Shown: positions 514-63,611 of the stretch, one piece after another | Position numbering within the stretch: the first letter of the stretch is position 1 | How the letters are laid out: the number at the start of each line of letters is the position of its first letter | IMG/VR virus record: IMGVR_UViG_3300017963_000282 | Location: 1-64,000 of that record | Length of the DNA stretch: 64,000 bases | Direction: 5' to 3' (one strand) | DNA from: a virus | The notes under the pieces: model-generated | What the model saw: the letters and a program-made list of their open reading frames with translations, nothing else | Databases searched by the model: none | What the model was told of the DNA's origin: nothing | Made by a program: the position numbers and the translations under genes

Positions 514-728
514 AGCTTTATATCCGTAACTACAAATGGAGAAGGTAAATTCCCTTTGACAATCAATTCCAAGCCAAATAATTTCTCAACGGTGCCGGAC
601 CAGTTAAAATGGGCTCTAATGGCCGTCTCTACTTGTGGGGTAACAAATACATATTTAGGTTTAATTCCTTGAACAAGCAACATATGTTTAGTCTGGTTAA
701 TATTACTTATGTAATTGATATCTTTCAT
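510..728 (-). CDS. Hypothetical protein, 72 aa
   Basis: Short ORF joined to both neighbours by tiny overlaps: its start overlaps the FmdB-like gene's end, and its stop overlaps the SbcC-like GTG start. This argues that it is a translated member of the replication operon. The sequence (starts MKDINYISNINQ) is mixed alpha/beta with no recognisable motif, no membrane segment and no cysteine cluster. I do not recognise the family. Its position next to the SbcC-like ATPase makes a recombination accessory role possible, but only as inference. Confidence 0.6.
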   Translation of the reverse strand: MKDINYISNINQTKHMLLVQGIKPKYVFVTPQVETAIRAHFNWSGTVEKLFGLELIVKGNLPSPFVVTDIKL

Positions 729-1312
729 TTTTTGATATCTTCTTCAATTTTCACTTTTTCATCTGGAAATAATTTTGGATATTGTTTCTTGAATTCCGCC
801 GCCTTTTCTTCACGTTTTTGAATGCGCCGAGTCACTCTATCCACTCGGGTTTTATTGTCTATTTCTCTTTTGGCCTTTTTCTGAGATTTATCCAAAGCTT
901 TTTGTAACCGATCATGAAAAGGTCTATGCTTATCTTTTAAATAGGTGTAGTATTTTTCAGCTTCCGCCGTTTTTTCTTTTTGCCTTTTCTTTTTATCCTG
1001 TAATTCTTCTTTTAGCGGCCCGGAAATATTTGGCCCGTAATGCAAATAATCAACAAAATCCTCCGCCTTTTCCTGCTCTTTTAGCAAGTCTCTTTCGGAG
1101 GGAAGGCCCAGGTCTTCATTTTTCGGTGGGATATAGTAATCGTTCTTTGCCTTAGCGCCTTTGATAATAAAGTTTACTTTACTAATTTGGCGTTTGAACG
1201 TGGTTTCCCCGCATTCCGGACATGGAAGTTTCTTTTTACCGGGGAAAGTTATAGGAAGTTTTAATTCCTCATGGTATTGGCAGGATTTGCAGTGGTATTC
1301 ATAAATTGGCAT
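725..1312 (-). CDS. FmdB-type zinc-ribbon protein with long basic coiled-coil tail
   Basis: The N-terminus MPIYEYHCKSC followed by CPECGE is the FmdB/CxxC_CXXC_SSSS zinc-ribbon signature. Cys 8, 11, 31 and 34 are the expected zinc ligands. Standard FmdB proteins end near residue 60-110. Here about 130 further residues are highly charged (many K, E and R) and predicted helical or coiled coil. The start ATG overlaps the preceding stop (TAATG). The function of the family is poorly defined; nucleic-acid or protein binding is likely. The setting among recombination genes suggests a DNA-related role, but that is inference. Confidence 0.7.
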   Translation of the reverse strand: MPIYEYHCKSCQYHEELKLPITFPGKKKLPCPECGETTFKRQISKVNFIIKGAKAKNDYYIPPKNEDLGLPSERDLLKEQEKAEDFVDYLHYGPNISGPLKEELQDKKKRQKEKTAEAEKYYTYLKDKHRPFHDRLQKALDKSQKKAKREIDNKTRVDRVTRRIQKREEKAAEFKKQYPKLFPDEKVKIEEDIKK

Positions 1313-35805: not shown

Positions 35806-35850
35806 TATTAAGCCCTCCTATGTTATCATCTTTTTCTCGTCTAGTCAAAT

Positions 35851-49562: not shown

Positions 49563-49599
49563 ACTATACCATATTTTTTAAAGAAAAAAGGTATGGTCA
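49563..49599 (-). promoter_or_regulatory. GACC-box promoter P1 upstream of the scaffold/capsid operon
   Basis: Minus strand: box TGACCATACC (49590-49599), 26 bp, then -10 TATAGT (49563-49568), with TATGG just before it. No -35 consensus is seen. An inverted repeat ACCATA/TATGGT overlaps the region. The predicted RNA starts near 49556 and forms a hairpin (ATGTGCA with TGTACAT, one G-U pair) before the AAAGGAGT ribosome site. The same box/-10 spacing occurs at two other sites. Confidence 0.6.
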
Positions 49600-49648
49600 T
49601 TCGATTTTTTTGAAAAAAAGTGAATTTTTTTGAGGGGTTGGGAACGTG

Positions 49649-49972
49649 CTAATCTAACACATAAAAGCTGATTTTATGGGGGGGAATGCGTAAGATCATG
49701 GAATCTTTGAAGATTCTCCATTTAATCGCAAAAGGCAGTTGTTTCATATGAAAATGAATATCCCAATAATATTTGGTAAAATTTTCTGCCTCTTTTAAAC
49801 CTAAATATCTCCACCTTTCTTTGAACTTCCAGCTATTTCGATAATTATAGATACCCTGTTGAACTAAAGCCTCGAAATATTTGCCAAAACACCTTTTGTA
49901 CCAAAAAGATAGACAAACATAAATCAATTTATAGCCTAACTTCTTGATTTCTTTATGAAATTTTTTCCGCAT
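49649..49972 (-). CDS. Basic aromatic-rich hypothetical protein, 107 aa
   Basis: Rich in Lys, Arg, Trp, Tyr and Phe (LGYKLIYVCLSFWYKRCFGKYFEALVQQG ... NFTKYYWDIHFHM). It is helical, possibly membrane-associated, and has no catalytic motif. It ends 50 bp upstream of promoter P1. Family unknown. Confidence 0.5.
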   Translation of the reverse strand: MRKKFHKEIKKLGYKLIYVCLSFWYKRCFGKYFEALVQQGIYNYRNSWKFKERWRYLGLKEAENFTKYYWDIHFHMKQLPFAIKWRIFKDSMILRIPPHKISFYVLD

Positions 49973-49993
49973 ATCCTTATTTTATCATAAATA

Positions 49994-50455
49994 TTAAGGT
50001 GTGTCTACTGGATCTTCCAAATTATCAACATATTGATCTATATATGGTTTTAATACAAAATCCATTTGTAAAATAACCATATGTTCCCAACACGTTCGAC
50101 GTAAATGATTAAATCGAAATATAGCATGTACAAATTCATGATTTAGCGTATGGATATCACCTTGTCGGACATAAATAGAATGGGTCATCGGATGATAACA
50201 ACCCAAAGCCCATGGACCACAATAATCAAAAAGACCATCCTCATCCACATAATAAACTTTAGGAAAAGGCGGTTCTTTTAAAACACATCCCTTTGAAGCG
50301 TAAGCTTGCAATAAAACGTTGAGATATCGCACATTTGCCTTAAGCAACACCTCATGTTCCCGCACTGGAGCTGGTTTTTTTGAACTTAGTGAAAATCCAA
50401 AAATATTAAAAATCAACAATAATCCTACTAATAATGAAAAAGTGTTTCTAAACAA
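49994..50455 (-). CDS. Secreted zincin-like metalloprotease (HEFVH)
   Basis: 153 residues. Hydrophobic signal segment (LLVGLLLIFNIFGFSL, about 8-23), then a mature part with Cys pairs (C57, C79, C86, C122) that suggest periplasmic oxidation. The active-site motif is HEFVH at 106-110, and downstream WEH (123-125) could supply the third zinc ligand. Its pattern HExxH in a small secreted protein resembles minimal zincins. A second one is encoded at 53341-53925. The substrate is unknown; cleavage of envelope proteins is an inference. Confidence 0.65.
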   Translation of the reverse strand: MFRNTFSLLVGLLLIFNIFGFSLSSKKPAPVREHEVLLKANVRYLNVLLQAYASKGCVLKEPPFPKVYYVDEDGLFDYCGPWALGCYHPMTHSIYVRQGDIHTLNHEFVHAIFRFNHLRRTCWEHMVILQMDFVLKPYIDQYVDNLEDPVDTP

Positions 50456-50468
50456 TGGTTTAGGATTC

Positions 50469-50807
50469 CTATAAGTCTGAAAATTTCCAAATTAAAGCGA
50501 TTAAAGACCATTGAAAAGCTGCCAACCATACCAAGAGAAAAGTTAGTATAATCCAAGACAGCCATTGCGGCACAAACATTAAATCAAATAGGCCGGTAGT
50601 AGTACCACCAATTGCCACGAACGCTGAAATATAATGGGATAGGCAATACGGACAACCTACCAATTTTCCCAAAAACTTAGATTTTTTTTGAATCCAACGT
50701 CTAAGTCCTTGAAATAACAGGCTTTTAGCAATAGTCCACGATAAACAAGCCACAATTGCGGATAAAATAAAAAGAGATGATCCACAAAATTCCTCTAGCA
50801 TATACAC
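50469..50807 (-). CDS. DUF1360-like small membrane protein
   Basis: 112 residues with three or four hydrophobic helices. The KFLGKLVGCPYCLSHYISAFVA motif (GCPYCLSxYxxAF) is the signature of DUF1360 membrane proteins. The CPYC pair could bind metal or be redox active. Starts at 50807 or 50801 are both possible. It lies beside the zincin and ClpP genes. Function of the family is unknown. Confidence 0.65.
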   Translation of the reverse strand: MYMLEEFCGSSLFILSAIVACLSWTIAKSLLFQGLRRWIQKKSKFLGKLVGCPYCLSHYISAFVAIGGTTTGLFDLMFVPQWLSWIILTFLLVWLAAFQWSLIALIWKFSDL

Positions 50808-50869
50808 CCACTACCACAATGCGTTACAGGACGTAGCATCCATTTTCTAATCCAAATACTTGAAATCAT

Positions 50870-51538
50870 TTATTTTTTACCCCCTTTGCGTTTTTTATTA
50901 GCCTGTTTTTTTACTTTTTTAACTAATGGTTTTTGTTTTGGCCAATCATTAAAACATAAAATTCCATCAACAAATCCATAGTTAACCACTTCTTCTACAC
51001 CTAAATATACATCCCCACCCTTGTTTTGAATAAAAAGATTTTTCAAACCAGCTTTTTTAAGCCTCGTATGGGTTTCATAAACATCATACATCATTTCCAG
51101 CCGATTCTCGCTTTCTTTACCATATGAAATAGAATCCCTAATATGTTCTGAACCGGATGAATGAACCGTTCCACCTTCATGGATCATAAAACACGTATTG
51201 GGAGCCAAATATCGTTCATCACAGGCCAACATAACAATAGTGGCCATCGAGGCCACGATTCCCCATCCAAAAGCTCTGGTATAACATTTTATGGATCTAA
51301 GAATGTCATACATCGCCCAACCGGCTTCATCCGACCCCCCACAGGAATTTACATGAATGGTTATTGGTCTTTTGTTCAATGATTCCAATAACATAAGATT
51401 TTTGTGCAACCGAATTGCCGCAGCCTGGGAAATATTCCCAATATATACTTCTCTCCTAGTGAGACTTACACCGGATTCCACATAACGCTCCAAATCATCA
51501 CCAAATGTGTTTATTTGGTCCCGTGTTTTGGCATCCAT
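50870..51538 (-). CDS. ClpP-like serine protease
   Basis: 222 residues. ClpP-fold signature: VYIGNISQAAA, IHVNSCGGSDEAGWAMYDIL, catalytic Ser97 in GWGIVASMAT, His120 in FMIHEGG, and Asp176 in GGDVYLGVEEVVNYGFVDG. All three triad residues are present. Phages use ClpP-type (S14) enzymes as capsid maturation proteases, and this gene lies about 1.4 kb upstream of the scaffold. It also has a Lys-rich tail. A role in host-protein degradation is the alternative. Confidence 0.82.
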   Translation of the reverse strand: MDAKTRDQINTFGDDLERYVESGVSLTRREVYIGNISQAAAIRLHKNLMLLESLNKRPITIHVNSCGGSDEAGWAMYDILRSIKCYTRAFGWGIVASMATIVMLACDERYLAPNTCFMIHEGGTVHSSGSEHIRDSISYGKESENRLEMMYDVYETHTRLKKAGLKNLFIQNKGGDVYLGVEEVVNYGFVDGILCFNDWPKQKPLVKKVKKQANKKRKGGKK

Positions 51539-51555
51539 TTGCTGGCCCTACCTGA

Positions 51556-51855
51556 TTAGAATTGAATTACAATACCGAAAGTTGGAGAGTGGGAATTGGC
51601 ATCAATTTTAAAATAATATCCCCAGTTGCAGTTTTGCCTGTATGGCGCAAGCTGTTTTTTATAAATTGGCGAGCTATTGATATATTCTTGTGAAAACTCA
51701 GATTGCATTAGTTGCCCGGCCACAAAATGATCCGATATATGAGTTTGCAGGATTTTTGGGATATTTCGAATCTGCCAAGAATACGAAGAAACACAAACCA
51801 TAAAAACTGAGAAAATCCAAGGAGTTAGCTTTCTCAATAATTGTTGAAATGTCAT
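51556..51855 (-). CDS. Secreted or membrane-anchored protein, 99 aa
   Basis: The ATG at 51855 follows a GGAGGG ribosome site; an earlier in-frame codon would contain that site. A single hydrophobic segment (PWIFSVFMVCVSSYSW) near the N-terminus acts as signal or anchor. The mature part is short with few motifs (NCNWGYYFKIDANSHSPTFGIVIQF). It is controlled by the strong promoter and paired operator-like repeats just upstream. Function unknown. Confidence 0.55.
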   Translation of the reverse strand: MTFQQLLRKLTPWIFSVFMVCVSSYSWQIRNIPKILQTHISDHFVAGQLMQSEFSQEYINSSPIYKKQLAPYRQNCNWGYYFKIDANSHSPTFGIVIQF

Positions 51856-51918
51856 ACCGCCCTCCAAGTTTTATTAGTCTACCACAAAATTATAACATAG
51901 GCGGTATGGTCTCGTCAA
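51853..51918 (-). promoter_or_regulatory. Sigma-70-type promoter flanked by paired operator-like repeats (P3)
   Basis: Minus strand: TTGACG (51913-51918), 18-bp spacer, TATAAT (51889-51894) with an extended TG. The 9-bp sequence CATACCGCC occurs between -35 and -10 (51900-51908) and again, inverted, over the start codon at 51853-51861. The 47-bp centre distance is close to 4.5 helical turns. The same GACCATACCGCC box is present at P4 (52327-52338). Confidence 0.6.
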
Positions 51919-52236
51919 TTATATTTTAAGTATTTGTAATTCCTTTGCTTTATTTTTGTTTTCCAGGTAGGACAAAATATGTGGTCTAGCCTCATGTAGC
52001 ACTGCCTTCTTAAATTTGGCAAATGAAAATTCATTTTGTCCAATAATTCCAAGGATTTCGGTGGGAAAGTATTCTTCAATAATTGCGTTATAGAGATCAT
52101 CCACTACCTCAGAAATTTGTTCCGGAATCTGAATTAACATACCGGAATCATTCAATTTTTCTATCCGACTAAAGATATAGTCTTGGGTCACATATCTCAA
52201 TGCAATTTTTTCTTCAATTGTTTTTTTACGTTCCAT
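51919..52236 (-). CDS. Helical hypothetical protein, about 105 aa
   Basis: I place the start at ATG 52236 (MERKKTIEEKIALRYVTQDYIF), behind a GGAGG located 14 bases upstream. Upstream in-frame codons overlap the P4 promoter. The protein is helical and charged, without a known motif. It precedes the P3 promoter region. Confidence 0.45.
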   Translation of the reverse strand: MERKKTIEEKIALRYVTQDYIFSRIEKLNDSGMLIQIPEQISEVVDDLYNAIIEEYFPTEILGIIGQNEFSFAKFKKAVLHEARPHILSYLENKNKAKELQILKI

Positions 52237-52302
52237 AATGGCAAAAATTAACCTCCATAGCTGTGAGCACATCTTAGCCACTAGGGCTCTTTTTTGCCAA
52301 TT

Positions 52303-52338
52303 AGTATAGCACACTTTTTCTAGTTGGGCGGTATGGTC
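52303..52338 (-). promoter_or_regulatory. GACC-box promoter P4
   Basis: Minus strand: box GACCATACCGCC (52327-52338), 26 bp, then -10 TATACT (52303-52308). The spacing equals that of P1 and P2. A small hairpin AGCC/GGCT follows. It would drive the 51919-52236 gene. Confidence 0.5.
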
Positions 52339-52438
52339 TAATATAACTACATGAAATCTATACAAAAAAACATCTTGTTCACCAATAGGGCACAATTTCA
52401 CGACCATGAAATAATGGCCATTTCGTGAACAATTTTAA

Positions 52439-52600
52439 TTATCTGCGATGTTTAAAAAATTGAATTTGACGCTCTGCGGCATTAAATCTTTTTTTAGAAG
52501 GTTTTTTTGTACCAAACCACCTTAAAACCCGTCCGGTAGTTTTAGAGATCAGGGCGTATTCTAATTTACCCGTTTTGGGATTTTTTCTGTGAGCTAGCAT
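52439..52600 (-). CDS. Small basic protein, 53 aa, paralog of its upstream neighbour
   Basis: ATG at 52600 overlaps the upstream gene's stop (TAATG). The product MLAHRKNPKTGKLEYALIS ... LRWFGTKKPS ... AAERQIQFFKHRR aligns along its whole length with the neighbouring 52600-52827 protein. Shared elements are the RKNPKTG start, a WFG(T/S)KKPS turn and an AER(R/Q)(V/I)QFF end. It is very basic and may bind nucleic acid. Confidence 0.7.
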   Translation of the reverse strand: MLAHRKNPKTGKLEYALISKTTGRVLRWFGTKKPSKKRFNAAERQIQFFKHRR

Positions 52601-52827
52601 TATTTTCGTTTTGGAGGAAGTAAACTCTTCTTCCGTACCTTCCGGCGTAAGGAACCGGTGCTTTTAGCCAAATTCTCAAAAAATTGTACCCGACGTTCCG
52701 CGCTGAGAACTCTTTCATGAGATGGCTTTTTGGACCCAAACCACTTAAGAACTTTACTGGGCTTGCTATCTGCTACCAGCGCCCATTGCATCGTTCCTGT
52801 TTTTGGATTCTTTCTCCTGACCAACAT
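52600..52827 (-). CDS. Small basic protein, 75 aa, tandem paralog
   Basis: MLVRRKNPKTGTMQWALVADSKPSKVLKWFGSKKPSHERVLSAERRVQFFENL plus a 25-residue basic tail. A beta-hairpin then a helix is suggested, ending with ERRVQFF, a motif seen in small phage proteins of unknown function. Twin of the 52439-52600 product. Lies directly downstream (minus strand) of the structured 52966-53207 region. Confidence 0.65.
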   Translation of the reverse strand: MLVRRKNPKTGTMQWALVADSKPSKVLKWFGSKKPSHERVLSAERRVQFFENLAKSTGSLRRKVRKKSLLPPKRK

Positions 52828-52936
52828 GCTACTATTCTCCTACTACAAAAAATTGACCATTTACTACATATTCGCAAAAAAAGCGTAACCACAACCAATT
52901 TAAGTTTATAATTAAAACATAATATACTTATTTAAT

Positions 52937-52966
52937 TTGATTATATTATCTTTCTTATTATATATA
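52937..52966 (+). promoter_or_regulatory. Promoter-like sequence for the 242-nt RNA candidate
   Basis: Plus strand TTGATT (52937-52942), 16-bp spacer, TATATA (52959-52964), in a very AT-rich stretch. The predicted start would fall within the first bases of the 5' arm at 52966. AT-rich DNA gives such matches by chance, so this is weak. Confidence 0.35.
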
Positions 52967-53207
52967 GATCATTATTGATCTAACAACAGAGAACCCGGAC
53001 TAGGCAGCTAGGAAAAGAAAGAAAAACGTAATAATTACGCATATTTACAAAGTCCAGACGCACCAATACGAAAAGTGTATTTTTGAATAAAAATCACCCT
53101 TCGTATTTATGACTCCAATTTTTTTAAATCCCTGAAGCCGGGATTAACTAACCTGCCGAAATTATTCGGCTTTCCAAAAAATCTTGTTGTTAGATCAATG
53201 ATGATCT
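52966..53207 (+). ncRNA. Candidate 242-nt structured noncoding RNA
   Basis: The 513-bp stretch 52828-53340 has no credible gene but holds this element. Arms 52966-52988 and 53185-53207 form a 23-bp stem; on the plus strand the only non-Watson-Crick pair is G-U, on the minus strand it would be a C-A mismatch. Inside are a 17-bp hairpin (53065-53107), AATCCC/GGGATT (53127-53145), GCCGAA/TTCGGC (53155-53170), CGTAA/TTACG (53027-53039), and a GGACT/AGTCC pairing (52997-53055). A T-run follows the 3' arm. No known RNA family is recognised; a MITE-like element is the alternative. Confidence 0.55.
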
Positions 53208-53306
53208 TTTCTATTGAGCACTACGCCTTCTTGCCTTTTTTTACCTCGCAGTATCAAGGTCCCAGCTCATGCAAAGATAACGAGGTGTGCAAAACGCACA
53301 GAGATT

Positions 53307-53343
53307 ACTATACCATACTTTTTCAAGAAAACAGGGCAGGTCA
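53307..53343 (-). promoter_or_regulatory. GACC-box promoter P2
   Basis: Minus strand: box TGACCTGCCC (53334-53343), 26 bp, then -10 TATAGT (53307-53312). It shares with P1 the stretch TTTTCTT-x-AAAAA-x-TATGGTATAGTA. The predicted RNA begins with a TGTGC/GCACA hairpin, again as in P1. The box overlaps the stop of the 53341-53925 gene, and transcription would run towards 52827. Confidence 0.6.
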
Positions 53344-53957: not shown

Positions 53958-53994
53958 ATTTTACTTGCTAGAATAGGGCAAAGTCAAGTAAAAT
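53958..53994. promoter_or_regulatory. Palindromic divergent promoter
   Basis: ATTTTACTTG (53958-53967) and CAAGTAAAAT (53985-53994) form a perfect 10-bp inverted repeat around 17 bp. Plus strand: TTGCTA (53965-53970), 18 bp, TAAAAT (53989-53994). Minus strand: TTGACT (53982-53987), 18 bp, TAAAAT (53958-53963). The two promoters overlap head to head and serve the zincin gene (minus) and the lipoprotein operon (plus), so only one polymerase can bind at a time. Confidence 0.65.
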
Positions 53995-57835: not shown

Positions 57836-58013
57836 TCATTTAAAAGCATTACATCTGAAACAAGCTGCCAAGCGAAAAATTCAGGTGAATTTGGATGCAT
57901 TATGGAGATTGGTGCATTGTAGTGATGAACGCTTACTCACAATGGAGTTTTTGGATAAAATCAATACTATTATTTTGAGTTTATGTAATAAATTTGAAAA
58001 GTTAAAAAAATGA
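57816..58013 (+). CDS. Hypothetical helical protein, 65 aa
   Basis: GTG start at 57816. Basic and helical (HLKALHLKQAAKRKIQVNLDALWRLVHCSDERLLTMEFLDKI). It ends with the overlapped start of the aminotransferase. No motif recognised. Confidence 0.45.
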   Translation: MGILLDNHLKALHLKQAAKRKIQVNLDALWRLVHCSDERLLTMEFLDKINTIILSLCNKFEKLKK

Positions 58014-58891
58014 GTTTACATATTATTGATGGCAATCAATCAATTTCCACATTAAACTACAGTCTGAATTACGGTGTTTGTGCTTGGGAAGGTATTCGAA
58101 CTTATTGGGGTAAACCATTATTTTTAAAAGCCCATATAGAACGTTTATATAGAAATGTAGAAGAATTAAAGATTTTAAATTATGATTTTGATCTCCTGAG
58201 AGATGAAACACGAATTCGTCAATTTATAGAAGCCCACCATATAACTATAACATTTGGGAATTTTGGTTATTTAAGACCTATTATTTATACGGATGTTACG
58301 GAAAAAACTCTGCCTAAAGATGGTTTTCCAGCTAAATTGGATATTCATTATATGCCGGTACAATCCACTTTAAACGGCCTGTCAAAATTTATAAATATGG
58401 GATTTAATTTTTCAAAAGATTTCATTCGAAATCGTAATCATGATAAATTTTTGAAAATTTCTCCCAATTATTGGCGTGTGGACCGAGCCAAATATTTATT
58501 GCCCATAGAGGTGGATGAAGTATTATTTCATGATGGCCGGTATGTGATTGAAGGAGGATTTTCTACTCTTTTTGCGGTAGATAAAAGCGGACAAATTCTT
58601 ACTCCAGAACTGTCGGCCAATTTTTTATTGGAGGGCATTACTAGAAAATGGATACTGGATGAGTTTAAAGTAAAGCAAATTAGAGGATTTCCGCTGAATA
58701 TGGGGTACTTTGAAGATAATATTACTGAATTATTTATAGCGGGAACCCATGCTGAAATAAAATCTGTAAAGAATTTATGGTATGCCAATGAAAATATTCA
58801 AGCCGCTGCTAAAATTGGAAATGGTACCACTCCCATAGCTGATGATATTCGAGAACGATATTTTGATTATATATGGAAGGTATGTAAATGA
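58010..58891 (+). CDS. Class IV PLP aminotransferase (branched-chain/D-amino-acid type)
   Basis: 293 residues. Fold-type IV features: NYGVCAWEGIRTY, HIERL, catalytic Lys149 in FLKISPNYW, VIEGGFSTLF with Glu181, and LLEGITRKW. Full-length without truncation, so activity is plausible. The family transfers amino groups between 2-oxoglutarate and branched-chain or related amino acids, or cleaves aminodeoxychorismate. Aminotransferases are very unusual in phage genomes. The substrate and purpose are unknown; neighbours give no biosynthetic context. Confidence 0.8.
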   Translation: MSLHIIDGNQSISTLNYSLNYGVCAWEGIRTYWGKPLFLKAHIERLYRNVEELKILNYDFDLLRDETRIRQFIEAHHITITFGNFGYLRPIIYTDVTEKTLPKDGFPAKLDIHYMPVQSTLNGLSKFINMGFNFSKDFIRNRNHDKFLKISPNYWRVDRAKYLLPIEVDEVLFHDGRYVIEGGFSTLFAVDKSGQILTPELSANFLLEGITRKWILDEFKVKQIRGFPLNMGYFEDNITELFIAGTHAEIKSVKNLWYANENIQAAAKIGNGTTPIADDIRERYFDYIWKVCK

Positions 58892-60049: not shown

Positions 60050-60242
60050 ATTAACTGAGGATGGTAAAGCTTTAATTGTAATGCCGGCTGATTATGAATC
60101 TGATGGCCTTTATTTGTTAGATTGCCGTTTGGTTTATCTTTTGATGCATTTAATAGGGCGTAGTTTGTCCTTTGAGGATTTTGATGAAATGATGGGGCAA
60201 ATTATCATTGAAATGGCTATTGAAAAAGGATTTCTGGAATGA
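60003..60242 (+). CDS. Hypothetical protein, 79 aa
   Basis: GAGGA precedes the ATG. Helical acidic protein (SLREFLVNELTEDGKALIVMPADYESDGLYLLDCRLVYLLMHLIGRSL). ATGA overlap with the Fic gene, so it is translated together with it. It might be a small regulator of Fic, but there is no sequence evidence. Confidence 0.5.
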   Translation: MKKPLLKSLREFLVNELTEDGKALIVMPADYESDGLYLLDCRLVYLLMHLIGRSLSFEDFDEMMGQIIIEMAIEKGFLE

Positions 60243-60946
60243 AAAATATAATTCGTTATCCAATCTGTGATTTAGCCTCATTCATAATGAATTCCAATAA
60301 AATAGAAAATATCAATTATTCTTATCAAGATACTGAAAATGTTATCAAGGAATGGCACCGCCTTATTGATCCGGTGGAACGGCAAATGTTTGAACAAACT
60401 ACGCCTTGTTATATAATTCAACATTACAAAGCTTTGCATTGGGCCTTACAAACTTGTAGTGTTATGACTTGGGATCAAATTTTAAAAATGCATCAAATTT
60501 TAATGAAAGGTCAATTAGGTCCCCATGAGGCCGGTTTACCAAGACGAGTACAAGTATATATCGGAGAACATATTCCTCCAGCTCCGGGCGAAGAGTTAAT
60601 GGCCGCCATACAAAAATTTATCCGGTGGATGGAACAAAATTTAATTTTAAGTAAATCTAAAATAAGACGATTACGAGTACAAACAAATTTGAATCGGGGG
60701 TTGTACATACAAGTTTATGAGGCTCATTGTCGCTTTGAGAGTTTACATCCATTTTTAGATGGGAATGGGCGTTCGGGACGTATTTTTTGGTTATCTCTTT
60801 TACATTATTATGGTTTTGAATTCAATGAGATAGATATTATGGATAGATGGGACTACTATAGATCCTTAAATCAATTCCATCAGTGGGAAAAAATAAAAGA
60901 TGTTACTTGGTTTCCGCCGAGATTGTATGCTGGAGAAAATTCATGA
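60239..60946 (+). CDS. Fic-domain AMP/UMP transferase with its own inhibitory motif
   Basis: 235 residues. The Fic active-site loop HPFLDGNGRSGR (residues 170-181) is intact, with catalytic His170. Near the N-terminus, SNKIEN (19-24) fits the inhibitory (S/T)xxxE(G/N) motif that blocks ATP binding in regulated Fic enzymes. The protein should attach AMP to a target Tyr/Thr/Ser of a host protein when inhibition is relieved. ATGA overlaps on both sides tie it to the RNA ligase gene. The target is unknown. Confidence 0.85.
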   Translation: MKNIIRYPICDLASFIMNSNKIENINYSYQDTENVIKEWHRLIDPVERQMFEQTTPCYIIQHYKALHWALQTCSVMTWDQILKMHQILMKGQLGPHEAGLPRRVQVYIGEHIPPAPGEELMAAIQKFIRWMEQNLILSKSKIRRLRVQTNLNRGLYIQVYEAHCRFESLHPFLDGNGRSGRIFWLSLLHYYGFEFNEIDIMDRWDYYRSLNQFHQWEKIKDVTWFPPRLYAGENS

Positions 60947-61584
60947 GCCAATATCATAAAATTCAATCTGCGTACAAAAGAGATCCGGAAACAAAATTTT
61001 CTACGTTATTGGAAGGTGAGTATTCAGAACCGGAATTTGAGTTGTTAAAAGACTGCCTTTGGACTTTTACAGAAAAAGTGGATGGAACGAATATACGTGT
61101 GTATTGGAACGGCGTAGCCGTTCGGTTTGAGGGCCGCACGGAAAAAGCTAAAATTCCACCGTTTCTATTGGAAGCTTTAAAGCAAATATTTCCGGAAGAC
61201 CAATTAAAGAAAGTATTTCCTGATTGTAATGAAGAAAAAGAAATAATTCTTTATGGTGAAGGATATGGAAATAAAATCCAAAAAGTCGGTAAAAAATATT
61301 TACCAAATAGCCAAGGATTCATTCTTTTTGACGTAAAAGTTGGCCATATCTGGCTCACACGAACAGCAGTAGACTTATTAGCGGAACAATTGAATGTGCC
61401 AGCAGTACCTATAATTGGAGTCGGCACCCTCGATGTAATGGTGGAAATGGTGCGAAATGGTTTTAAATCCAAACTAGGTGATATGGAAGCGGAAGGAATT
61501 GTGGCCCGCCCTGCAATTGAGCTGCGTAATCGAATGGGTCAGCGTATTATTACCAAGATTAAAGCGAAAGATTTTAAAAAATGA
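60943..61584 (+). CDS. RNA ligase (T4 Rnl2-like)
   Basis: ATG at 60943 with GGAG upstream. Nucleotidyltransferase motifs: I TEKVDGTN with Lys45, Ia/III FEGRTEKA, IV EGIVARP, V TKIKAKDFKK. The 213-residue length covers the core catalytic domain but has no extended C-terminal domain. Such phage ligases reseal RNA nicks (for example tRNA cleaved by host nucleases). No polynucleotide kinase is visible in the window; the metallophosphoesterase nearby (61843) could process ends, by inference. Confidence 0.85.
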   Translation: MSQYHKIQSAYKRDPETKFSTLLEGEYSEPEFELLKDCLWTFTEKVDGTNIRVYWNGVAVRFEGRTEKAKIPPFLLEALKQIFPEDQLKKVFPDCNEEKEIILYGEGYGNKIQKVGKKYLPNSQGFILFDVKVGHIWLTRTAVDLLAEQLNVPAVPIIGVGTLDVMVEMVRNGFKSKLGDMEAEGIVARPAIELRNRMGQRIITKIKAKDFKK

Positions 61585-61841
61585 ACGAATTCCAAAAGGA
61601 AATGCAAAAAAATATTATCGCGCTTTATAAAACAAAACAAGATATGTTAGAAAATCATGTTCGGGAAGGGTGTATTTATTGTAAGAAAAAAGCAATTGAG
61701 ATTAAAGAATTTCAAGATCAACCGGGAGTGGAATACATGATTTTTGCTTGCGGCTCGATGCTGAAAATAACTGAAAAACGTCATACTGAAAAGCATTCCT
61801 TTACGATGACTTGGGATAGAACTTTCTTACGGAAATGTTAA
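61581..61841 (+). CDS. Small Cys/His protein, 86 aa
   Basis: ATGA overlap. CIYCKKK and a later Cys (FACGSM) with several His residues could form a zinc site. No further motif. Placed between the RNA ligase and the metallophosphoesterase, suggesting a small RNA-related partner, but this is a guess. Confidence 0.5.
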   Translation: MNEFQKEMQKNIIALYKTKQDMLENHVREGCIYCKKKAIEIKEFQDQPGVEYMIFACGSMLKITEKRHTEKHSFTMTWDRTFLRKC

Positions 61842-61842
61842 A

Positions 61843-62418
61843 ATGCATAATATTTGGTTTACAGCCGATCAACATTTTTGGCATAAGTCGATTATTCGAC
61901 ATTGTAATCGCCCATTTCCGTTCCTAACTCAGATGCACAGAGCCTTAATTGATAATTTTAATGCGGTAGTGACTAATAAAGATCATATTTATCATCTAGG
62001 TGATTTTGCCTTTATAAATAATGTTCCGATGGTGAAAAAAATTTTTAAAGAGCTTAACGGTAAAAAACATTATATTATTCCTGGAAATCATGATCGTTGG
62101 CTTCGAAAATTAAAACGGGAGGGGGAGTCTATTTATCGATTAGAGATTTTAGAACCCATACATGAATTAAAATGGGAAGGACAACGAATCACTCTTTGCC
62201 ACTATGCTATGCTTACCTGGCCTGCGGCGCATCGTGGCAGTTGGTGTTTATATGGTCACTCACACGGAAATCTTAAACCAGAGAAAGGACGACTTATGGA
62301 TGTGGGAGTGGACTCGCATAATTTTTATCCTATTAGTTTTAACCAAGTAAAAGAATATATGGCCACCCGCATACCCTGGGAGGTGGACCACCATAGAGAG
62401 GAAAAAGGCAATGGCTAG
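61843..62418 (+). CDS. Calcineurin-like metallophosphoesterase (second copy type)
   Basis: 191 residues of the short phage/bacterial MPE type: FTADQHFWHKSII (D-x-H), IYHLGDFAF (GD), IPGNHDRW (GNHD), LCHYAML, YGHSHGN (GHSH), with VGVDSHNFYPISF after it. All metal ligands are present. Substrates of this subgroup are poorly known. It is encoded directly before the deoxyribosyltransferase-like gene and after the RNA ligase, so it might remove terminal phosphates from RNA or nucleotides. It is unrelated in length to the 20325-21107 enzyme. Confidence 0.85.
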   Translation: MHNIWFTADQHFWHKSIIRHCNRPFPFLTQMHRALIDNFNAVVTNKDHIYHLGDFAFINNVPMVKKIFKELNGKKHYIIPGNHDRWLRKLKREGESIYRLEILEPIHELKWEGQRITLCHYAMLTWPAAHRGSWCLYGHSHGNLKPEKGRLMDVGVDSHNFYPISFNQVKEYMATRIPWEVDHHREEKGNG

Positions 62419-62977
62419 AATCATTAGAAAAGGGGATGGGGCTAATGTCCCGCTTGATTTTGGAGTGCCTCCTGGATATACCATTTATTTATCCGGTGGC
62501 ATGGAATATTCATCTGATTATGGAATGGGTTGGAGAGATAAAATTGTACAAGAGCTTTCTGAGACCGGTTTTAAATTTTATAATCCTTGCGAAGAAGAAA
62601 AACCTATTTTAAAGCACCATGGAGTAAAAGATCCAACTGAGCTCTTTAAAATGAAAACATGGAAAGATTTACCAAAAGCAGTAAGCGTGGTCAAGGATTT
62701 TTTGATTAAAGATAGAAATGTTATTTATCAATGTAACGCTCTGATAGTATATTACGACAAATCTACGCAGCTGGGTGGTGGTACTGCAATGGAACAAGCC
62801 TGGGCGAATGAGGGAGTGAATGAACAGCGGCCCATTTTCTTTGTCATGGGTATTGGATTTGAACTCAAGAATGTTTCATTATCCATGTTGGCCATGTCTG
62901 ATTACATTTTTGAGGATTTAAAAGACTGCATTATTTATTTAAAAAGAGCGAGGGAACTTTATGACCATGTTACCTAA
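62411..62977 (+). CDS. Nucleoside 2-deoxyribosyltransferase-like protein
   Basis: 188 residues. IYLSGGMEYSSDYGMGWRDKIVQELSETGFKFYNPCEEE (YLSGxM, and acidic turn) and CNALIVYYDKSTQLGGGTAMEQAWA follow the nucleoside 2-deoxyribosyltransferase/YtoQ pattern, in which the catalytic Glu lies in the GTxxExxxA segment (here GGTAMEQAWA). It would exchange the base on deoxynucleosides. It overlaps the DeoC gene, matching a nucleoside salvage or breakdown unit. Confidence 0.7.
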   Translation: MARIIRKGDGANVPLDFGVPPGYTIYLSGGMEYSSDYGMGWRDKIVQELSETGFKFYNPCEEEKPILKHHGVKDPTELFKMKTWKDLPKAVSVVKDFLIKDRNVIYQCNALIVYYDKSTQLGGGTAMEQAWANEGVNEQRPIFFVMGIGFELKNVSLSMLAMSDYIFEDLKDCIIYLKRARELYDHVT

Positions 62978-63611
62978 AGATGTATTATCGAAAATTGACT
63001 TTGCTAGATTAGATCCGTGCCACTCTCTTTTACATATTCAAAAAGCTTGCAATTTAGCTTTGGATGTTGGCTTTCGTGGAGTATGTGTTCATCCAAAATT
63101 TATTGGCGTTACGAAATTTATGTTGGAAAATAGCACAATCAAAACTATTAGTGTGGTGGATTTTCCCCATGGTGGTAGGAATACTTCCATGCGCCTAAAG
63201 GACGTGATGGCTTTTCATGATTTAGGTGCCGATGAACTAGATATTGTTATGAATATCAGTGAAGCGAAAGCTGGAAATTGGAATCAAGTGTATGATGATT
63301 TAGTAGTGGTCGTAAAAGCAAGTTATGTGCCCGTCAAAATTATTGTGGAAACTGATCTTTTAGTTGAAGATGAAAAAATTAAAGCTGCGGAAGTTGTGCT
63401 GCAAAGTGGCGCCCAATATCTTAAAACTGGAACTGGAACGGTAAAAAATGGATTAGGTGCGTCCATTAGTGATATCAGATTATTTGCCGAAATCCTTGGG
63501 GATCATTGCGGCATTAAAGCCAGCGGTGGAATCAATAGTCGTCGCCAAGTATTTGATTTACTCGGATCTGGGGCTACAATTATTGGAACTTCTGGAATTT
63601 GGGATATGTAA
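62961..63611 (+). CDS. deoC: Deoxyribose-phosphate aldolase
   Basis: 216 residues. Active-site motifs: GADELDIVMN (Asp91/Asp94 region), LKTGTGT with Schiff-base Lys155, and IKASGGI with Lys186. It splits 2-deoxyribose-5-phosphate into glyceraldehyde-3-phosphate and acetaldehyde. All catalytic residues are intact. The gene overlaps the transferase-like gene by 17 bp. Together they could recycle host DNA sugar for energy. Confidence 0.9.
   Translation: MTMLPKDVLSKIDFARLDPCHSLLHIQKACNLALDVGFRGVCVHPKFIGVTKFMLENSTIKTISVVDFPHGGRNTSMRLKDVMAFHDLGADELDIVMNISEAKAGNWNQVYDDLVVVVKASYVPVKIIVETDLLVEDEKIKAAEVVLQSGAQYLKTGTGTVKNGLGASISDIRLFAEILGDHCGIKASGGINSRRQVFDLLGSGATIIGTSGIWDM

Follow-up and report, generated by a model that had tools for sequence, protein, structure and literature searches.

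Four minus-strand promoters of an uncultured phage share an asymmetric box at a fixed distance from an extended −10 element

Four promoters on the minus strand of an uncultured phage genome share the unit GACCATACC-N18-TGn-TAnAnT, in which an asymmetric 9-mer box precedes an extended −10 element at a fixed distance. The shared promoter element is real and well supported, and the four sites probably form one coregulated class, run by a factor that would bind GACCATACC and contact the host RNA polymerase. The DNA analysed (the window) comprises 64,000 of the 64,040 bases of IMG/VR record IMGVR_UViG_3300017963_000282 and belongs to a phage not described before, from a group with almost no described relatives. 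The phage is contractile-tailed, with genes for an SU10-type major capsid protein, tail sheath, tube and baseplate, and its replication genes encode a PolA-type polymerase, a DnaB-like helicase and a UvsX-like recombinase. The record is probably incomplete, since no terminase was found in it either by family search or with the terminase of a sister phage (see below) as query.

A sequence-only reading had placed a GACC box exactly 26 bp from a TATA(G/C)T −10 element at three minus-strand places. Searching the whole record for GACC-N3-CC-N21-TATA(G/C)T returns exactly three matches (49598-49563, 52338-52303 and 53342-53307, all on the minus strand), and the spacing is exact in each; the place named for P1 and the position given for P4 are correct, but the position for the start of P2 was off by one base (53342, not 53343). 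The whole-record motif search proposed in that reading shows, in favour of its interpretation, that the box recurs at a fourth operon, where a relaxed scan finds a site that had been missed, P3 (51911-51876, minus strand), with the sequence GACCATACC-N21-TAGACT. In their order along the minus strand, the boxed promoters and the units that follow them are:

P2, 53307 to 53342, minus strand: box GACCTGCCC (6/9) at 53342-53334, N18, TGG, TATAGT; aligned, GACCTGCCC tgttttcttgaaaaagta TGG TATAGT; ahead of a predicted structured noncoding stretch and then two small basic-protein genes (52827-52600 and 52600-52439, minus strand).
P4, 52303 to 52338, minus strand: box GACCATACC at 52338-52330, N18, TGC, TATACT; aligned, GACCATACC gcccaactagaaaaagtg TGC TATACT; ahead of gene 52236-51919 (minus strand).
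P3, 51876 to 51911, minus strand: box GACCATACC at 51911-51903, N18, TGG at 51884-51882, TAGACT at 51881-51876; aligned, GACCATACC gcctatgttataattttg TGG TAGACT; ahead of gene 51855-51556 (predicted transcription start about 15 nt before the gene) and then a ClpP-like gene (minus strand).
P1, 49563 to 49598, minus strand: box GACCATACC at 49598-49590, N18, TGG at 49571-49569, −10 TATAGT at 49568-49563; aligned, GACCATACC ttttttctttaaaaaata TGG TATAGT; ahead of the scaffold (49505-48669) and SU10-type major capsid (48636-47581; Pfam SU10_MCP) genes (minus strand).

The 9-bp box is identical in three of the four promoters, P2 being the deviant, and a perfect extended −10 (TGn), unnoticed before, occupies the same position in all four. 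With the −10 hexamer set at −12 to −7, the box covers approximately −42 to −34 and is centred near −38. All four boxes lie on the same strand, intergenic or at a gene end, and each stands ahead of a different transcription unit. P1 and P2 have in common, as had been noted, TTTTCTTxAAAAAxTATGG, and 15 of their 18 spacer bases are identical; GACCATACCGCC is common to P3 and P4. The GTGC-type hairpin proposed for the RNA 5′ ends of P1 and P2 is also predicted here, as UGUGC(A/G)-loop-(G)YACA, and depends on the assumed start site. The box as part of a hairpin or terminator was rejected as a common feature, the ACCATA...TATGGT pairing being possible at P1 only.

The recurrence of the element far exceeds what chance would yield: the three matches to GACC-N3-CC-N21-TATA(G/C)T compare with 0.008 expected per shuffled genome, and the three to the GACCATACC pattern with 0.24. 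An unbiased search over all 9-mers at 45 spacings before TGNTANANT on both strands finds that only GACCATACC, at 18 bp, reaches at least three copies; dinucleotide shuffles yielded no such 9-mer in 60 and in 500 genomes, and likewise no such 8-mer in 500. Outside the box and −10, the flanks of P1, P3 and P4 resemble one another at chance level, while the box matches at 9/9 positions, so recent duplication alone does not account for these three. P1 and P2 may be duplicates of each other, because they share 15/18 spacer bases, and this similarity, together with GACCATACCGCC at P3 and P4, is what speaks for duplicated DNA or chance resemblance with no regulatory meaning; set against the shuffles, the unrelated flanks and the conservation of TGn and −10 in all four promoters, that explanation is highly improbable.

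The reported lack of a −35 consensus is borne out, the best −35 hexamer (spacers of 15-19) matching at 2/6 positions in all four boxed promoters, a score as low as that of 29% of TANNNT sites. A different arrangement is seen in a neighbouring promoter:

53958 to 53987, minus strand: sigma70-like contrast promoter, TTGACT-N18-TAAAAT, ahead of gene 53925-53341 and without a box.

The boxless minus-strand intergenic −10 elements at 53963 and, ahead of the tail-tube gene, at 35825 both have TTGACT as their −35, a match of 5/6. This suggests two promoter classes, box without −35 versus −35 without box, each represented by few examples. Scanned for generic sigma70 promoters, the region yields 22 against 23.1 expected, no more than chance, and individual sigma70 promoter calls are therefore tentative.

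The exact spacing, the lack of a −35 and the TGn point to a factor positioned at about −38 and in contact with host RNA polymerase; the fixed spacing favours an activator, since one that touches RNA polymerase needs it. In the mechanism we propose, host RNA polymerase with its primary, sigma70-type sigma would recognise the TGn-TAnAnT extended −10, and a sequence-specific factor, probably phage-encoded, would take over the role of the −35 by binding GACCATACC, at about −42 to −34, and contacting the polymerase at sigma region 4 or at the C-terminal domain of alpha. Boxed promoters would then fire only after the factor has been made, and the capsid genes, the accessory genes and the large structured RNA would be turned on together as a regulon of the head and accessory region. 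We infer as most likely that such a factor exists, is of phage origin, activates, and acts in middle or late infection.

The joint control of virion and accessory genes put forward in the sequence-only reading agrees with boxes before the scaffold and capsid genes, the accessory genes and the RNA, but does not extend to the whole virion: in the relaxed scan of the record no box lies ahead of tail, baseplate or replication genes, which would rely on read-through or other promoters. This restriction counts against activation through the box, as do the possible duplication of P1 and P2, the lack of a known activator family in the record and the absence of the box from the sister phage.

The sequence features of activator-dependent, −35-less phage promoters, i.e., a good −10, no −35 and a shared box at fixed spacing, are all present here. 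In T4 middle promoters a 9-10 bp asymmetric box likewise replaces the −35 and the sigma70 −10 is kept, often with TGn, however, the MotA box TGCTTtA has its centre at −30 and lies 12 ± 1 bp from the −10 (PMC2988021), whereas the GACCATACC box has its centre near −38 and leaves 21 bp to the −10; no MotA-type box (TGCTTYA-N11-13-TANNNT) occurs in the tested promoter gaps. The middle promoter Pm of Mu also carries an activator site near −40 upstream of its −10 hexamer, but the Mor site is a dyad with its centre at −43.5 (PMC4287176), while the present box is an asymmetric sequence with its centre near −38, and no dyad common to the box and flanks was seen in the four-promoter alignment, read by eye. 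The zinc-finger activators of the phage P2 Ogr/Delta type recall the earlier zinc-ribbon idea; their site (TGT-N12-ACA for Ogr) is absent from the tested promoter gaps. The comparison with Mu- and T4-type control thus stands as an analogy, a −35-less class with a box at a fixed helical position, but without a homologue of Mor, Ogr, MotA or AsiA.

Instead, a sigma factor, either phage-encoded or alternative, could read the whole bipartite element, with GACCATACC as its −35 and TGnTAnAnT as its −10. The bipartite spacing is fixed, as in the GTAAtg-16-aCTA motif read by the sigma of phage 7-11 (PMC8948821), and the SU10-type capsid and a special promoter class before late genes recall the sigma-encoding phiEco32-like phages (PMC4281155, PMC8948821). 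The motifs of these phages (for phiEco32, tAATGTAtA; PMC8948821) are, however, unlike the present box, and the phiEco32-type AATGTATA does not occur in the tested promoter gaps. In addition, TGn-TATA(G/C)T is an ordinary sigma70 extended −10, the distance from box to hexamer (21 bp, or 18 bp to TGn) is large for a single sigma, and the record has no Sigma70_r2 or Sigma70_r4_2 match, which makes a dedicated sigma unlikely.

P3 has a composite layout, in which it overlaps a second promoter:

51889 to 51918, minus strand: near-consensus sigma70 promoter, TTGACG-N18-(TGT)TATAAT, with 11/12 matches and an extended −10.

This is the best minus-strand sigma70 match in 47.4-54.5 kb. The P3 box lies inside its spacer, 1 bp after its −35, and the TAGACT promoter is situated 13 bp downstream. 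The layout suggests that binding to the box could swap promoters: the factor would shut the sigma70 promoter and turn on the TAGACT promoter. A possible analogue is p4 of phi29, a repressor of A2b and A2c and an activator of A3 (PMC4974454); at P3, a single site could repress one promoter and activate another.

The same overlap would also fit a repressor operator, with P3 as a blocked sigma70 promoter and P1, P2 and P4 as extended −10 promoters that are constitutive but kept silent early; promoters of this type can dispense with a −35 (PMC2988021). A repressor does not, however, need an exact 18-bp spacing, the boxes of P1, P2 and P4 are upstream of the −10 and not over it, and the poor −35s are left unexplained, so that we regard repression as quite unlikely. 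A more specific proposal is possible, although doubtful: GACCATACC would be bound at −42 to −34 by a new activator family whose fold is missing from current libraries, and this family would turn P3 from a constitutive into a regulated start and couple the structured RNA to capsid synthesis.

Candidates for the factor were sought by family. Sigma70_r2, Sigma70_r4_2, Mor, Ogr_Delta, MotA and AsiA have no match in the record, which is likely to lack part of the genome, and a single zinc-ribbon protein carries a family name:

725 to 1312, minus strand: 195-aa zinc-ribbon protein of the FmdB family; weak as a candidate for binding the box.

It is weak because relatives of this protein are present in the sister phage, which has no GACC box. 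The lack of an activator family in the record would be explained if the box were bound by a host regulator borrowed by the phage, but phage middle and late control usually employs phage proteins, and we hold a host regulator to be very unlikely.

Searches with the capsid, sheath and ClpP-like proteins for close relatives returned one sister phage only, by its capsid (three records, 56% capsid identity); a baseplate alignment found it again, together with distant matches. In the sister phage (G003, 64,847 bp) the structural genes are in the same order and the replication genes are recognisable. The GACC box is absent from it, and there is consequently no cross-species footprint. Its scaffold promoter, TGGTACACT, likewise resembles the extended −10 type and has a poor −35, and upstream of it an inverted repeat, TGAAATATTT-N10-AAATATTTCA, stands in place of the box; no comparable box was recognised upstream of its extended −10 elements, and its top repeated words presumably reflect repeated DNA outside promoters. 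As judged from this one phage pair, the form of the capsid-operon promoter may have persisted through a change of the upstream site. Beyond the sister phage, a blastn search of phage records with the region gave no match. In the sequence collection, GACCATACC-N21-TAKANTA occurs in 56 contigs, about the chance number by estimate, with a single exact match each and no convincing repeated promoter-like copies, and the P1/P2 form with TGGTATAGTA has no match.

Several genes of the phage deserve mention in their own right. The tail sheath is split into two overlapping frames (44561-43197 and 43407-42115, minus strand), where the sister phage has one 812-aa gene, by a frameshift that is programmed, a mutation or a sequencing error. 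The ClpP-like protease (51538-50870, minus strand) lies in the accessory cluster, and the copy of the sister phage is elsewhere in its genome. Two accessory proteins without a Pfam match (53925-53341 and 50455-49994, minus strand) carry HExxH motifs (HEYTH and HEFVH, respectively) and are possible zinc-dependent peptidases. A plus-strand cluster (60239-63611) encodes a Fic-domain protein, an RNA ligase, a metallophosphatase and a DeoC-like aldolase, with an aminotransferase class IV gene (58010-58891) upstream of it, and a patatin-like phospholipase gene (13631-12798, minus strand) is found amid the tail-region genes.

The unit that follows P2 begins with a noncoding stretch:

52955 to 53302, minus strand: predicted structured noncoding RNA, made from P2; fold z −6.2, with 0/100 shuffles folding as well.

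A predicted long-range helix closes a multi-branched structure in this stretch, which is a candidate for a new large phage RNA; Rfam gave no match for it, even at E 5, and nhmmer none in any locus retrieved. The tandem small basic proteins encoded downstream are 53% identical and share the motif RKNPKTG...L(K/R)WFG(S/T)KKPS; the first (52827-52600) has no family match, and neither these proteins nor the capsid have relatives in prokaryote genomes.

Activator-dependent phage promoters are a known kind, to which the present promoters would add a box and a spacing of their own. They define a small, testable regulon and provide an exact bait sequence for finding its regulator. They also link the predicted large structured RNA with the capsid operon under one control, a clue to the timing and purpose of this RNA.
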